Part shown: positions 1,635 through 6,392 of the stretch, piece after piece
Numbering within the stretch: the stretch's first letter is position 1
How the letters are laid out: each line of letters opens with the position of its first letter
Source of the DNA: Bacteroidota bacterium
GTDB taxonomy: Bacteria > Bacteroidota > Ignavibacteria > Ignavibacteriales > Ignavibacteriaceae
Assembly (NCBI GenBank): GCA_021793635.1
Contig: JAJYSI010000129.1
Coordinates: 1 to 8,186 of the forward strand
Direction of reading: 5' to 3'
DNA length: 8,186 nt
Notes under the pieces: generated by a model
Databases searched by the model: none
What the model saw: the letters and a program-made list of their open reading frames with translations, nothing else
Told to the model about the DNA's origin: nothing
Position numbers and translations under genes: made by a program

Positions 1635-1856
1635 ATGGAATCGGTAATAATAAATCGCGAAGAATTGAAAAGAATAATTCGTGAGACATTTGAAGATGTT
1701 CTGAATGAACGAAAAGATTTAATCAGTGATGCAGTGGTTGAGGCAATAGAAGATATAGGACTTGCAAAGGCAATTGAGAAAGGGCGAAAAGGAGAATATG
1801 TTGATAATAGATTGTTCAAGAAAAAACTTGAAGACAAAATTAAGCGTGCTAAATGA
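1635..1856 (+). CDS. Antitoxin-like protein of a RelE/ParE-type toxin-antitoxin pair
   Basis: A 73-residue, highly charged protein beginning MESVIINREELKRIIRETFE. It is predicted to be almost entirely helical, and the segment around residues 36-58, with EDIGLAKAIEKGRKGEYVD, resembles the toxin-wrapping tail of RelB/ParD-like antitoxins. In such pairs the antitoxin binds the toxin and represses its own promoter. The assignment rests mainly on context: the stop codon overlaps by 4 bases (ATGA, 1853-1856) the start of a remnant with clear RelE/ParE toxin features. The frame is intact, so the antitoxin may still be made although its toxin is broken. ATG 1635 is the only methionine start in frame; no good ribosome-binding site precedes it. 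No DNA-binding domain can be named with confidence, and the exact antitoxin family is unknown to me. Confidence 0.7.
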   Translation: MESVIINREELKRIIRETFEDVLNERKDLISDAVVEAIEDIGLAKAIEKGRKGEYVDNRLFKKKLEDKIKRAK

Positions 1857-2111
1857 AAATCAACATTGAGAAATCTTTTAGTAAAGATGTTGATAAGATT
1901 AAAGATAAAAAATTGCTTCTGAGTCTACAAGATATTATCTCAACATTGGAGAAGGCAAAATCATTAAAAGAAAATCCAGGGGCACAAATTTTTTTATAGA
2001 ATAAAAATTGGCGATTATTGATTAGGTATGGAAGTCATTCCAAACAAAAGTGTTAGTTTAGTCCGGTTCTTGCATCGAAAAGATATATATCGTTTTTTCC
2101 CAATCAAATAA
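1853..2111 (+). pseudogene. Broken RelE/ParE-family toxin gene
   Basis: The start ATG overlaps the antitoxin stop. The first frame encodes a 48-residue ORF (1853-1999) starting MKINIEKSFSKDVDKIKDKK and reaching SLKENP, typical of the N-terminal helices of RelE/ParE-type mRNA interferases or gyrase poisons. From 1980 the homologous continuation is in another frame: GHKFFYRIKIGDY, then TGA at 2019-2021, then LGMEVIPNKSVSLVRF and LHRKDIYRFFPIK ending at TAA 2109-2111. Family members usually read ...IKKLKG-x-x-x-YRIRIGDYRLG..., so about six residues are missing at 1978-1980 with a frame change, and the TGA sits where Arg is expected (CGA to TGA is one transition). Two independent lesions make sequencing error unlikely. 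The C-terminal strand residues RFLHRKDIYRFFP remain well preserved, so inactivation looks recent. Confidence 0.85.
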
Positions 2112-2731: not shown

Positions 2732-4465
2732 ATGAAGAAAAAAATTACATTTTATAATACACATAAAGTTACTTCCATTCAGGATATGCTGGTCCAATCA
2801 GCATCGAAGCATCAAAATAAAATTGCGCTTGAGGACCTGGCAGATACTCTTATTAAAAAAGTAACATATGGTCAGCTTCAAGAAAATGTTTTAAGGTTCG
2901 GCAATGCTTTGAAGAAGCTCGGTATAAAAGAGCGGACTCATATTGCAGTTATAGGCGAGAATAGAGTCCAATGGGCAATTACTTACCTTACGGCAATGGC
3001 ATTCAATTTTGTTATTGTTCCGATTGATAAAAATCTAAACATCAACGAAATTCTAAATATCATTCATGAATCCGATTCCGAGGCAATAGTCTTTTCTGAG
3101 TCATTTGAATCAACATTCAGAGAAAGAATGGGGTCTCTCAAGAAGATGAAGCATTATATCAGCATGGATCTGCAGGCAGAAAAAGACGGCATACTTTCTA
3201 TGGCTGGGTTAATAAATTCATCCGCCCCCGGTGAGGTTAGCGAGCTTCCGAAAATAAATCCCGATGACCTTGCTGAAATTATTTTTACATCCGGCTCGCT
3301 TGGAAGGGCTAAAGGAGTAATGCTGAGCCAGAAGAATTTAGCTTCTAACCTGATGGCAATGACGAGTCTGATTGAAATAGGTCCGACAGATAAATTTCTG
3401 TCGGTTCTGCCGATACATCATACATATGAGTGCACATGCGGATTGCTTTGTCCGTTGTATTCAGGCAGTTCTGCGCACTATGCAAGGTCATTAAAAACAG
3501 TTGTAGATGATTTGCAAATTGTAAAGGCAACTATTCTGCTCGGTGTTCCGCTGTTGTTTGATAAAATGTTTAAGAGGATTTATAAAACTATTCAAGAAGA
3601 TAAAATAAAATCGAAAGTAGTTCCGCCTCTTATCAAGATTACAAACATTATTTCGGCAGTCGGATGGAAAAGTTTTAAGAAAAAAGTTTTTAAAGAGCTT
3701 CACGAAAAGTTCGGCGGTTCTATCAGGATTTTTATTGCCGGAGGTGCAGCACCGGATCCGAAGGTTGCAAAAGGACTGCGCGAATTCGGGTTTAATTTTG
3801 TGCAGGGTTACGGCTTGACTGAAACAGCGCCAATCCTTGCATTAAATCAATTAGAAAATTTTAAAGATAATGCCGCCGGTATTACTCTTCCGAATGTTGA
3901 AATAAAAATTAACAATCCATCTTCTGACGGAGTCGGGGAAATTTATGCTAAAGGTCCTAATGTAATGCTCGGCTATTATAAAAATGAAAAACTAACTGCA
4001 GAAGCTTTTGAGAACGGCTGGTTTAAAACCGGCGACTTGGGCTTTTATGATGAAGAAGGATTTCTTCACATAAGCGGCAGACAGAAGAACATGATACTTT
4101 CTAAGAACGGTGAAAATGTTTTTCCCGAAGAGATTGAAGATTTATTGAACCGCAGTACTTACGTGCTCGAATCGCTTGTTTACGGTGAGAGGCATGAGAA
4201 GCATGATGAAATAATTGCGGCACAGATTGTTGTTGATGCCGAATCGCTGATAGAATATTCTGAAGTAAATAATGTGAAAATTACGGATGAGCTGATTAAT
4301 AAAATTATTGGAAACGTGATAAAAGAAGTTAATAAGGAACTCCCTCTTTATAAGCAGATTAAAAAATATTATGTACGCGATAAAGAATTTGAAAAAACTA
4401 CGACTCAAAAAATTAAGAGGTACCTCGTCAATTCTCCGGTTAATAATTCCGGGATTGAAGCGTAG
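2732..4465 (+). CDS. AMP-forming acyl-CoA synthetase (long-chain fatty acid-CoA ligase type)
   Basis: A full-length 577-residue member of the ANL adenylating superfamily. These enzymes activate a carboxylic acid with ATP to an acyl-adenylate and then transfer it to CoA. The motifs occur in order: the phosphate-binding loop FTSGSLGRAKGVMLS at 185-199, the aromatic/acyl-site region LPIHHTYE at 226-233, QGYGLTETAP at 358-367, the ribose-binding GWFKTGDLGF at 429-438, the hinge ISGRQKNMIL with Arg450, NGENVFPEEIE at 459-469, and the C-terminal adenylation lysine in TTTQKIKRY (probably Lys560). The phosphate loop carries Ala193 where proline is usual (TTGxPKG), a mild variation. There is no signal peptide or membrane helix, so it is a cytoplasmic or peripheral protein. 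Length and motif set fit fatty acyl-CoA ligases, but chain-length preference cannot be told. ATG 2732 is preceded by CCGGGGC, a poor ribosome site. A strong terminator follows. Confidence 0.93.
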   Translation: MKKKITFYNTHKVTSIQDMLVQSASKHQNKIALEDLADTLIKKVTYGQLQENVLRFGNALKKLGIKERTHIAVIGENRVQWAITYLTAMAFNFVIVPIDKNLNINEILNIIHESDSEAIVFSESFESTFRERMGSLKKMKHYISMDLQAEKDGILSMAGLINSSAPGEVSELPKINPDDLAEIIFTSGSLGRAKGVMLSQKNLASNLMAMTSLIEIGPTDKFLSVLPIHHTYECTCGLLCPLYSGSSAHYARSLKTVVDDLQIVKATILLGVPLLFDKMFKRIYKTIQEDKIKSKVVPPLIKITNIISAVGWKSFKKKVFKELHEKFGGSIRIFIAGGAAPDPKVAKGLREFGFNFVQGYGLTETAPILALNQLENFKDNAAGITLPNVEIKINNPSSDGVGEIYAKGPNVMLGYYKNEKLTAEAFENGWFKTGDLGFYDEEGFLHISGRQKNMILSKNGENVFPEEIEDLLNRSTYVLESLVYGERHEKHDEIIAAQIVVDAESLIEYSEVNNVKITDELINKIIGNVIKEVNKELPLYKQIKKYYVRDKEFEKTTTQKIKRYLVNSPVNNSGIEA

Positions 4466-4511
4466 TTTTTAATCAGGGACCTTGTCCTCAACTTTTAGCA
4501 AAATGGAAAAG

Positions 4512-4553
4512 AAAATTGCAAAGCGCAGAGCGTTATTTATGCTTTGCAATTTT
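4512..4553 (+). terminator. Strong hairpin terminator after the acyl-CoA synthetase gene
   Basis: AAAATTGCAAAGC (4512-4524) and GCTTTGCAATTTT (4541-4553) are perfect reverse complements, giving a 13-bp stem with a 16-base loop. An A-run on the left and a T-run on the right mean it can work in both directions as an intrinsic terminator. It lies 47 bases after the synthetase stop. A 66-codon open stretch from a TTG at 4482 runs straight through it and is not credible as a gene. Confidence 0.8.
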
Positions 4554-4644
4554 AGTTATGAAGATGTTTTGAATGATCATCTCCCTAAGAATTCTATAGA
4601 CTTTAGCACAGCGTTGGAAATAATTAATTTATTAAGAATAATAA

Positions 4645-5213
4645 TAAACACACTACTAAAAATCTTTATCATGATTGAGTAAGACTCTAAAATTAGTTTT
4701 TAAGTACTTAGCATGATTGTTCAAGTCACTCGCATGTGGTTATTAAGCTCTAACATGATGGCGTAAATGCTTAACACGGGAGCGAAAAACCATTAACACG
4801 TGGTCATTAATCACTAACAGGATAGCGTAAATCCATAACAGGGAGGCGCAAATGGTTAACACGAGAGCGTAAATCATCAACACATGGTCATTAATCACTA
4901 ACAGGGTGGCGAAAACCCTTAACATGGAAGCGTAAATCGTTAACATGTGCGCATTAATCACCAACACGCCAGCGTAAATGATCAACAGGATGGCGTAAAT
5001 GGATAACACGTGGTCGTAAATCACTAACAGGGAAGCGAAAATCATCAACACGACGGCGTAAATGATCAACAGGGAGGCGTAAATGGATAACTCGTGGTCG
5101 TAAATCACTAACAGGGAAGCGAAAACCCTTAACACGACGGCGTAAATCGTCAACACGTGGTTATTAATCACTAACACGGAAGCGTAAATTGATAAAATGG
5201 TTGCGGAATGGCA
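4645..5213. repeat. Minisatellite: about 25 tandem copies of a diverged 21-bp unit
   Basis: Consensus unit on the plus strand is TAACAsG-NNR-GCG-TAAAT-NNN (s = C or G), exactly 21 bases. Twenty-one clear copies run from 4751 to 5192; all are 21 bases except the second (4772-4793), which has one extra A in an A-run. Degenerate copies continue outward in register at 4730-4750, 4709-4729, 4688-4708 and 4667-4687, perhaps one more at about 4645, and one at 5193-5213. There are no gaps and no unique spacers. The last three bases of each unit are the most variable, and copies share variants at regular spacings. The core is visibly more G+C-rich (near half) than the AT-rich flanks. Edge decay with a more uniform core is the usual picture of a tandem array that turns over by slippage or unequal exchange. 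Function is unknown. Confidence 0.95.
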
Positions 5214-5255
5214 AAGAATGTCCTTATTATACGCGAAAAGGAAGGAGTATGTCAA
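4743..5255 (-). other. Open reading frame inside the repeat array; heptad-repeat peptide, doubtful gene
   Basis: Because 21 bases are seven codons, the minus strand of the array stays open for 170 codons. It translates as hydrophobic heptads such as SLLVIYD, HVLSIYA and SLLIIYA, codon pattern NNN ATT TAC GCY NNC sTG TTA. Against coding: the start would be a TTG at 5255 with no ribosome site, the pattern is lost at the extra A of the second unit, and the two fully variable bases of each unit fall at first and second codon positions, while third positions are nearly fixed. In favour: TTA/TTG differences are silent, and GTG/CTG/ATG and TAC/TTC changes are conservative. I regard it as a by-product of the repeat length rather than a demonstrated gene. 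Confidence 0.25.
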
Positions 5256-5284
5256 TCGTCATTATTCAATCGTCAATCGTCATT
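5252..5284. repeat. Short direct repeat, 12 bases at 21-base spacing
   Basis: TCAATCGTCATT occurs exactly at 5252-5263 and again at 5273-5284, with a further TCAATCG at 5266-5272. The start-to-start distance is 21 bases, the same as the neighbouring array, although the sequence is unrelated to that unit and is not in register with it. Confidence 0.7.
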
Positions 5285-5602
5285 GGTAATTGGGTGGTGT
5301 TGATTTGAGGGAGAGGGTTGTTTTGGACTCACACTAAATCCTTCTAGAGTAATTTCATTATGTTTGTAAATTTTGAAAAGCCCATAATATGTCACTTCTA
5401 CGAAGTTTTGTTTTTGAGGATTCTTAGAGTGTTAATAATATTTCACGCTGCTGTCGTTTCTGAAAAATCATCTTGAAAATAATTATTGAATTATAATGAA
5501 ATGAAAGAAATATTTAAGGAATAAAAAAGCATAGAGGTGAAATATTATTAAAGTCAAAAATCAAAACAGATGAAAGAACATTGTAGATGTAAAATAATTT
5601 TT

Positions 5603-5633
5603 TCGATAATCGAATAAAGATTTTAAATCTTTA
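5603..5633. repeat. Two adjacent perfect palindromes
   Basis: TCGAT-A-ATCGA (5603-5613) is followed one base later by TAAAGATTT-T-AAATCTTTA (5615-5633), arms of 5 and 9 bases each around a single central base. They could be operator-like sites or AT-rich hairpins; no gene start lies nearby to support an operator role. Confidence 0.5.
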
Positions 5634-5774
5634 CTTAATGACATTACTTAAGAAGAACAGGACTTTGTATTGCAAAGTTTTCCTTTAAGGATTATTTTTT
5701 TTGAAGAATCAGTTAAGAAGACTATCTGTAAATTAGAAAACCAAGGTATTACAGGCGAAAATATTTTACTGTAA

Positions 5775-6392
5775 CTACAAGCTGCTGGAATCTTTAGTTG
5801 CGCGTTTATTGTCGATTTTCTTTTTTACATAATAAAGCAATATAAGGACTACCAATGCTGCAATTGAAATTAGAATTATATTATGGTCAACAGTGTAAAG
5901 GATAGAGTTCCAATGATTGCCGAAAAAATATCCAAGTGAGATGAAGGTAGCAGTCCAAATAAATCCGCCGGTATAAGAGAAAAGAGCAAACTCCCACATT
6001 TGAAGTTCTGAAGCTCCGGCAAATATAGCAACGATATGTCTAACCCCGGGAATAAAATATCCGATCAATAAAGTCCATCTGCCGATTTTCTCAAACCAGT
6101 CGTGTGCTTTTTGAAGTCTCGCTTCTGTAATATGAATAAAGTGTCCGTACCTAATCAGAATATGATGACCGAAGGTACTTCCGATAGCATAACTGATTGA
6201 GATGCCTGTAATACTTCCAAGGAATGCGGCGATAAAAGTCGGGATAATATGCAGCTCGCCTTTGGAGACAAGAAAGCCGGATAATGCGAGCAAAGTCTCG
6301 TCGGGTACGGGAATGCCAACAATACCAAACATCAATAAAACAAAAATTCCCAAATAGCCGTAATGAGCTATCAGGTGATGGAGAGTTTCCAT
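5775..6392 (-). CDS. DedA-family integral membrane protein
   Basis: A 205-residue DedA (SNARE-associated/VTT-type) protein of the inner membrane. Family members take part in membrane-potential homeostasis and in turnover of lipid carriers such as undecaprenyl phosphate; which role applies here is unknown. Hallmarks are GIPVPDE at 26-32, the second hydrophobic block around 50-72, the amphipathic RYGHF...ARLQKAHDWFEKIGRW region at 81-106, GYFIPGVRHIVAIFAGAS at 111-128, and C-terminal helices to about 189 followed by a basic, polar tail. The usual GRFIPxxR has Tyr112 in place of its first arginine, while Arg118 is kept. Length is normal. ATG at 6390-6392 overlaps by one base the stop of the upstream kinase gene (TAATG), indicating translational coupling and one operon. 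Stop is TAG. Confidence 0.92.
   Translation of the reverse strand: METLHHLIAHYGYLGIFVLLMFGIVGIPVPDETLLALSGFLVSKGELHIIPTFIAAFLGSITGISISYAIGSTFGHHILIRYGHFIHITEARLQKAHDWFEKIGRWTLLIGYFIPGVRHIVAIFAGASELQMWEFALFSYTGGFIWTATFISLGYFFGNHWNSILYTVDHNIILISIAALVVLILLYYVKKKIDNKRATKDSSSL

Follow-up and report, generated by a model that had tools for sequence, protein, structure and literature searches.

What is a long run of 21-bp repeats doing between two convergent genes of an Ignavibacteriaceae bacterium, and what keeps its period so exact while its bases diverge? The window, by which we mean the whole stretch of DNA that was analysed (8,186 nucleotides), carries the run in a gap of 1309 bp between an AMP-ligase gene and a VTT-domain gene. 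The ligase is 89-91% identical to those of two metagenome-assembled genomes (MAGs), DBS2-1.bin11 and WY2.bin67, which are called G001 and G002 below. The features of the gap and its borders are as follows.

2732 to 4465, plus strand: AMP-binding gene (long-chain acyl-CoA ligase-like), the left convergent neighbour
4512 to 4553, no strand: terminator-like inverted repeat (13 bp, perfect), situated between ligase gene and array
4604 to 4750, plus strand: left decayed units, in register (array start by HMM, 4660)
4743 to 5255, minus strand: open frame of 170 aa spanning the array, taken to be spurious (no Pfam match, no relatives, non-coding stop and codon pattern)
4751 to 4792, plus strand: two more good units, left of a single 1-base insertion
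4794 to 5192, plus strand: array core of 19 gapless 21-bp units, YAACAsGnnRGCGTAAATnnn, with a subtype every 63 or 84 bp (by TRF, HMM and lag identity)
5193 to 5255, plus strand: right decayed units, with a gapless alignment to the G001 sister array that reaches about 5249
5226 to 5255, minus strand: promoter-like site directed leftward into the array, 12/12 to the sigma-70 consensus (TTGACA, 18, TATAAT), which may not be the consensus of this lineage
5775 to 6392, minus strand: VTT-domain (DedA-like) gene, the right convergent neighbour

A short 7-bp array adjoins the 21-bp one at 5251-5282 (TRF), and the AT-rich gap to the right holds a perfect 15-bp inverted repeat (5432-5446 / 5537-5551, 90 nt apart). 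Elsewhere in the window (1635-2110), a RelB-like antitoxin gene is followed by an early-stopping frame that, by eye, resembles a broken toxin partner.

The array is both long and regular. A cyclic profile-HMM scored it at 487 bits above background and counted 26.1 units of 21 bp in 4660-5208, with one insertion, no deletions and 150 mismatches in 548 positions (27% against the consensus); the sole inserted base lies at about 4792/4793. Identity at lag 21 reached 0.577 over 4640-5225, compared with a maximum of 0.356 among 1000 first-order resamples (lags 9-63), and no other stretch of the whole window was periodic at z of at least 5 over the same lags. TRF reported period 21 with 19.2 copies and 6% indels in its own alignment, together with further rows at periods 63 and 84 (indels 2, 0 and 0%). 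The unit consensus, YAACAsG-nnR-GCG-TAAAT-nnn, agrees with the TAACAsG-NNR-GCG-TAAAT-NNN of the first-pass annotation, which had described a large 21-bp minisatellite between convergent genes with about 25 copies, one indel and decay toward both edges. The HMM, the lag-21 identity and the gene calls confirm that description; the decay is gradual on the left, where the register can be traced over 4604-4750, and more abrupt on the right, past 5192. Within the array, the unit subtype TGG-TCr-TTAATCAC returns every 63 or 84 bp, as would follow if three or four units at a time had been duplicated.

With head-to-tail units in the range of about 10-60 bp that recur above chance, the array belongs among the minisatellites. 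Its units abut with no spacers between them as a CRISPR would have, and the seven frames that were Pfam-scanned within the 8.2-kb window included no cas genes and, as regards iterons, no Rep gene; the array had no plasmid or phage match either. No palindromic stem of the REP or BIME type was detected in the window unit (dyad p 0.51 for arm 4 and 0.16 for arm 6), nor was a 7-bp subperiod such as a heptamer array would leave (cyclic lag-7 z 0.6). Only two inverted repeats of at least 11 nt occur in 4460-5780, and neither brackets the array in the manner of MITE or IS ends. Rfam gave no match to the window at the gathering score. The earlier view that the repeat matches no known type thus holds for Rfam, for the phage and plasmid collections and for the literature searched, in which, with few subscription papers covered, no description of such arrays was found.

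The window array is lineage-specific. The same convergent gene pair was recovered in 8 of 39 Ignavibacteriota-type loci, and all eight lack the array, their gaps measuring 18-757 bp. When the whole genomes of eight relatives were searched with BLAST, the only clear sister array was that of G001, which has 15.6 units, aligns to the window array at 74.5% identity over 263 bp without a gap, repeats its subtype pattern and matches its right edge in register. It is located on another contig, downstream of a 143-aa ORF that appears cytochrome c-like by its CxxCH motif (by eye). To the right of this sister array (L081:1870-1990) lies an imperfect inverted pair, GTCAACTGCCGGC / GCCGGCAGCTAATGAC, perhaps attC- or MITE-like by eye, and in another relative a 14-bp-based tandem array directly follows the homologous ligase gene (L038:8745-8938). 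No further close members of the window family were found in searches of 146 and 295 genomes, viral contigs (0 matches), plasmids and phages.

Broader definitions of the family by sequence were tried and rejected. A profile built on sequence alone from the arrays of the window and G001 matched 19 of 295 genomes at E<=0.01, with only G001 strong; two of the weak matches (G002:C9 and G251:C116) lie inside other 21-bp arrays, and the remainder are unconfirmed. A two-unit pattern with at most one mismatch was found in 12 of 146 genomes, three of its matches being in the G001 array, and the single match in G020 also falls in a 21-bp array. The group-wide motif CGTAAA-N5-AACA-N6, taken twice with at most three mismatches, occurred in 166 of 295 genomes with a reversed control that was equally full by eye; its matches at G002:C18 and G020:C87 do fall in 21-bp arrays.

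Following up the weak matches to the window family brought to light arrays in G002, G020 and G251 that share the period but are built of other units. A scan of G002 (WY2.bin67; 1,513,836 bases), a close and well-assembled relative, was made irrespective of unit sequence and gave 20 candidates with a lag-21 peak, 16 of which were kept. The four that were dropped are C23:306876 (within a long ORF), C23:627646 (in an open frame and called genic, 6 deletions), C23:615127 (a heptamer array, 1 insertion) and C23:51993 (weak and AT-rich, 3 deletions). Indel-tolerant TRF, limited to periods of 13-31 and at least three copies outside long ORFs, made 131 calls in this genome, among them 32 at period 21, two at period 20 and seven at period 22; at a score of at least 100, 15 of 16 calls had period 21 and corresponded to 13 kept arrays (one with two calls) and the rejected heptamer array. 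G002 also has intergenic arrays whose unit is 11 bp, close to one helical turn (C23:187979, C23:236156, C11:7378 and C14:17369).

The period-21 arrays are unevenly spread even within the group. Neither G014 nor G038 had an intergenic one in 400 kb each, the few periodic calls there lying in ORFs of 156-1129 aa, and among ten intergenic periodic calls in 400 kb of G193 both lag-21 calls were heptamer-like. The 470 kb of loci around the ligase contained one 21-bp array (L008, in G008), and 509 kb of clostridial loci contained two intergenic arrays, with periods of 31 and 33.

An all-against-all comparison of the 20 G002 candidates and six other arrays revealed units that are mostly unrelated in sequence from one array to the next. 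Besides the window and G001, the family pairs are C14:113517 with C23:129513 (gapless over 279 bp, 73%), C1:78093 with C23:73306 (gapless over 387 bp, 61%), C11:97488 with the L008 array of G008, and C18:34250 with the G020 array; there are weaker links too. Likeness between array profiles was below p 0.05 in 16 of 78 pairs, several of the arrays having been found by their likeness to the window, and four finds made blind to sequence (73k, 129k, 472k and 485k) showed no likeness to the window array. In array C14:113517 there is an internal duplication of eight units. An origin of the 21-bp units from 7-mers was rejected as a general explanation, the 7-bp substructure being clear only in C23:472k. 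Dyads were enriched over 22 arrays jointly (Fisher 4e-6, arm 4), an effect carried by C9:79835, C11:97488 and L008 and absent in the window. In G251, two 21-bp arrays of related units stand head to head, in opposite orientation, within one convergent gap (L194:2246-2744).

Whether other such arrays sit between convergent genes was a check proposed at the outset, and they do, mostly with different unit sequences. In G002, convergent gaps hold 8 of the 16 arrays, compared with 125 of 1192 gaps overall (p 9e-5) and 35 of the 326 gaps of at least 200 bp (p 1e-4); five of the remaining arrays are in divergent gaps and three in tandem ones. Omitting the two arrays that were first met by similarity or pattern leaves 7 of 14 (p 2e-4), and all 20 candidates give 8 of 20 (p 6e-4), counts that carry some error of orientation, since genes in the relatives were called simply as ORFs with a minimum of about 90-100 aa rather than by a gene finder. 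The same genome contains a MITE-like family (e.g., L295:15891-16053 and C14:113376-113503) with the ends TAACTYACGTTACGCACA / TGTGCGTAACGTRAGTTA and lengths of mostly 128 or 161-163 bp; 33 end pairs occur in 1.51 Mb, and some adjoin 21-bp arrays. Seven of 31 MITEs lie in convergent gaps, a proportion that does not differ significantly from that of the arrays (p 0.10), while tandem gaps hold 3 of 16 arrays and 19 of 31 MITEs (p 0.007). As the MITEs also lean toward convergent gaps, tolerance alone may explain the location of the arrays.

Two further arrays can be compared with their empty sites. Both flanks of C23:73306 were matched in all 12 of the other genomes, where they overlap by 8 bp (G001), stand 14-116 bp apart (ten genomes) or are separated by about 3 kb (G005). 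Those of C14:113517 were both present, 14-88 bp apart, in 7 of 12 genomes, with only parts of the left flank in three (289-369 bp away) and only the right flank in two; for C11:97488, the right flank had no match. Since the first two junctions are short in the relatives, these arrays look like later arrivals, as does that of the window. The segment C14:113230-113378 of G002 corresponds to a dispersed repeat, about 150 bp long and matched more than 20 times in G005, which in G002 shares its gap with a 21-bp array.

Indels are scarce in these arrays. The 16 G002 arrays contain 1785 mismatches and 12 indels at about 32% mismatch, and 13 of them have no indel at all; the 20 candidates together contain 2131 mismatches and 22 indels, with none in 14. 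We used the MITEs of the same genome as a yardstick, in which 25 indels accompany 336 substitutions over 27 copies of the 128-bp class. The ratio of indels to substitutions in the 16 arrays is thus lower than in the MITEs by a factor of about 11 (Fisher p 5e-12), or of about 7 when all 20 candidates are taken (p 3e-10), i.e., one indel per 149 or per 97 substitutions, respectively, compared with one per 13 in the MITEs; in arrays and MITEs alike, mismatches against a consensus are inherited as well as new and are not independent mutation events. Indels do occur in C23:472k (7), L008 (6), C11:97488 (3) and C23:129513 (2).

Detection may account for some of this scarcity. Among 40 simulated arrays of 16 units at the MITE ratio, TRF kept 37 and the lag detector 21, compared with 40 of 40 by the lag detector when no indels were introduced, and our scan hence favours indel-poor arrays. 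With lax gap costs, TRF placed 0-11% indels in its alignments of G002 arrays that scored at least 100. The method is not blind to indels, because the HMM picked up about two thirds of the true indels, about 4 of 6 per array, in the arrays that were simulated at the MITE ratio.

Substitutions are also unevenly distributed over the unit: in 20 of 22 arrays, the mismatches differed between columns at chi-square p<0.01. The window array hardly varies in columns 2-5, 7 and 16 and varies freely in columns 6, 8-10 and 20-21, and in the sister array of G001, columns 2, 3 and 16 are invariant. The window unit accordingly reads as two conserved blocks (AACA-s-G and GCGtAAAt) about one helical turn apart with freely varying triplets between them. 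Over the 22 arrays, the 10.5-bp harmonic of conservation (k=2) was the strongest (Fisher p 2.8e-7; 1.4e-4 with one array per family), even though it was below 0.05 in only six arrays individually (window p 0.008). The harmonics at 21 bp (k=1, p 0.0085) and 7 bp (k=3, p 6.7e-5) were raised too, and part of the 10.5-bp signal is therefore a mere clustering of conserved columns. The AT content of the units had no 10.5-bp harmonic. Column variability was correlated between sister arrays in four of six pairs (r 0.68-0.88) and uncorrelated in two more distant ones (-0.15 and -0.11); what the sisters share may be inherited subtypes. Constant helical spacing combined with conserved blocks is what characterises a protein-binding phased array; the scarcity of indels in the G002 arrays, the single insertion in 26 units of the window array and the 10.5-bp harmonic fit this pattern, which is consistent with protein binding rather than proof of it.

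Taken together, the account that we prefer, at slightly less than an even chance, is that of a lineage-specific, non-coding, satellite-like array that grows by whole units and whose 21-bp unit is probably held by a bound protein. Such arrays would originate in, or be brought to, intergenic gaps that tolerate them, chiefly convergent ones, and unequal exchange or slippage would add or remove whole units, as the internal multi-unit duplications and the higher-order periods suggest. Array DNA would also be copied or moved between sites, to which the sister arrays at different loci point. The unit is held at 21 bp, i.e., two helical turns, while its bases drift by about 30%, the likeliest reason being a putative protein that lines one face of the helix throughout the array; a substitution in a varying column would be tolerated, and an indel would dephase all units beyond it. 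Two proposals of the first-pass annotation gain support here: selection on spacing from the depletion of indels (12:1785 against 25:336), and conversion-like turnover from the eight-unit duplication in C14:113517 and the 63/84-bp higher-order repeats. The unit sequences differ between families, so that one sequence-specific protein is unlikely to serve all of them. A bolder extension, which we regard as rather unlikely, is that the arrays would number dozens per genome in some bacteria of the Ignavibacteriales clade and would be phased platforms for a loosely sequence-specific nucleoid-type protein, absorbing or insulating torsion and colliding transcription at convergent junctions, with the period rather than the sequence as the heritable functional trait.

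A serious rival, which is a real possibility although we hold it to be on the doubtful side, is that the arrays are functionless minisatellites in which copying with a fixed 21-bp step both sets and keeps the period; they would persist by tolerance alone, at places where they strike no promoter or ribosome site. The mostly unrelated units speak for such a process, as does the whole-unit internal duplication; the location of the arrays is like that of the MITEs, 4 of 31 MITE copies even lying in one gap with an array, and the bias of detection toward indel-poor arrays acts in the same direction. On the other hand, the gap between the indel rates of the MITEs and the arrays persists with all 20 candidates, and the uneven mismatches over the columns in 20 of 22 arrays likewise count against it. 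We know of no slippage process that strips indels and yet keeps 30% substitutions.

For the window array alone, transcription has to be considered. Starting from the minus-strand promoter (5255-5226), an RNA of about 700 nt with tandem 21-nt units could be made, ending at the inverted repeat 4553-4512. The 12/12 match directed into the array, of a class found once in the 1.51 Mb of G002, and the perfect inverted repeat on the far side of the array both favour this. The edges of the other 21 arrays have no sigma-70-like site with at least 11 matches, however, and an edge promoter was rejected as a general trait of the arrays; the fold of the window array was not exceptional (z -1.0 and -1.25), and the sigma-70 consensus may not apply in this lineage. 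Thus, the promoter may make this one array a transcribed RNA, outside the general pattern, but as an explanation of the array we consider an RNA element unlikely.

That the array is cargo of a mobile element with insertion at gene ends, or a product of such an element, is, in our estimation, more doubtful still. It would explain arrays of the same family at different loci, arrays in junctions that are short in the relatives and the MITEs that adjoin some of them. The absence of any inverted repeat pair of at least 11 nt that brackets the window array speaks against it, as does the one empty site read at base level, which displayed no clear target duplication; moreover, the right flank common to the window and G001 proved to be decayed units itself.

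A decayed or active gene for 7-residue repeats is very improbable. It is true that 21 is a multiple of three and that long open frames occur, such as the 170-aa frame on the minus strand, and some G002 arrays have a stop-free frame. The 170-aa frame nevertheless had no Pfam match, and none of 745 candidates was a protein relative of it at E<=10. Not one of 13 arrays had significantly fewer stops in its best frame than its column-permuted versions (lowest P 0.18), and the best frame of the window array had two, compared with a mean of 3.1 after column shuffling (P 0.37). Differences between sister arrays were spread evenly over the codon positions in three gapless pairs (25/19/23, 27/24/25 and 61/47/41; a fourth pair, misaligned through an indel, was left out), and the conservation profile had no 3-bp harmonic. 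Neither the kept frame nor the codon periodicity of a repeat-protein gene was found, and the coding reading, whether as the minus-strand frame or as plus-frame heptads, was rejected. Lastly, an assembly artefact, which might be suspected because the window is one whole metagenome contig, is hardly conceivable given that the diverged units are unlike the product of a collapsed or looped assembly and that similar arrays occur in separately assembled relatives.

Bacterial tandem repeats are usually judged by their sequence or copy number. The population described here keeps its unit length nearly to the base as its bases drift, in non-coding and often convergent gaps; if the spacing is indeed selected, this would suggest either a new protein that organises DNA or a copying mechanism that measures off 21 bp. 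The arrays resemble bacterial intergenic minisatellites and VNTRs in their head-to-tail, non-coding units of tens of bases and their apparent growth by whole units, but differ in the many mostly unrelated arrays per genome, in the one exact period that they share, with indels scarce despite about 30% divergence, and in their lean toward convergent junctions. REPs are palindromic units, and BIMEs and REP elements sit between convergent genes; our arrays are likewise repeat DNA at gene ends, whereas the window unit has no significant dyad, though a few other arrays have dyads. Heptamers are described as the most abundant repeats in prokaryotic intergenic DNA, with an unclear function, in a tandem-repeat survey in which periods in multiples of three are also abundant (PMC6344855). 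As described there, the heptanucleotide repeats are similarly intergenic, fixed in period and widespread; the 21-bp units have no general 7-bp substructure, although some 7-bp harmonic is present in their conservation. In marine Beggiatoaceae, many sets of intergenic TAACTGA direct repeats have been reported, for which a regulatory role was proposed (PMC4679880). They too amount to many short intergenic tandem repeat sets per genome, but, on that report's description, it is one heptamer sequence that is fixed there, while here the period is fixed and the sequence varies. Finally, the helically phased periodicity of 10-11 bp in DNA, as characterised in PMC3372288, consists of phased A/T runs and shares with our arrays a period near one or two helical turns; in the arrays, the 10.5-bp signal resides in the conservation profile and not in the AT content.
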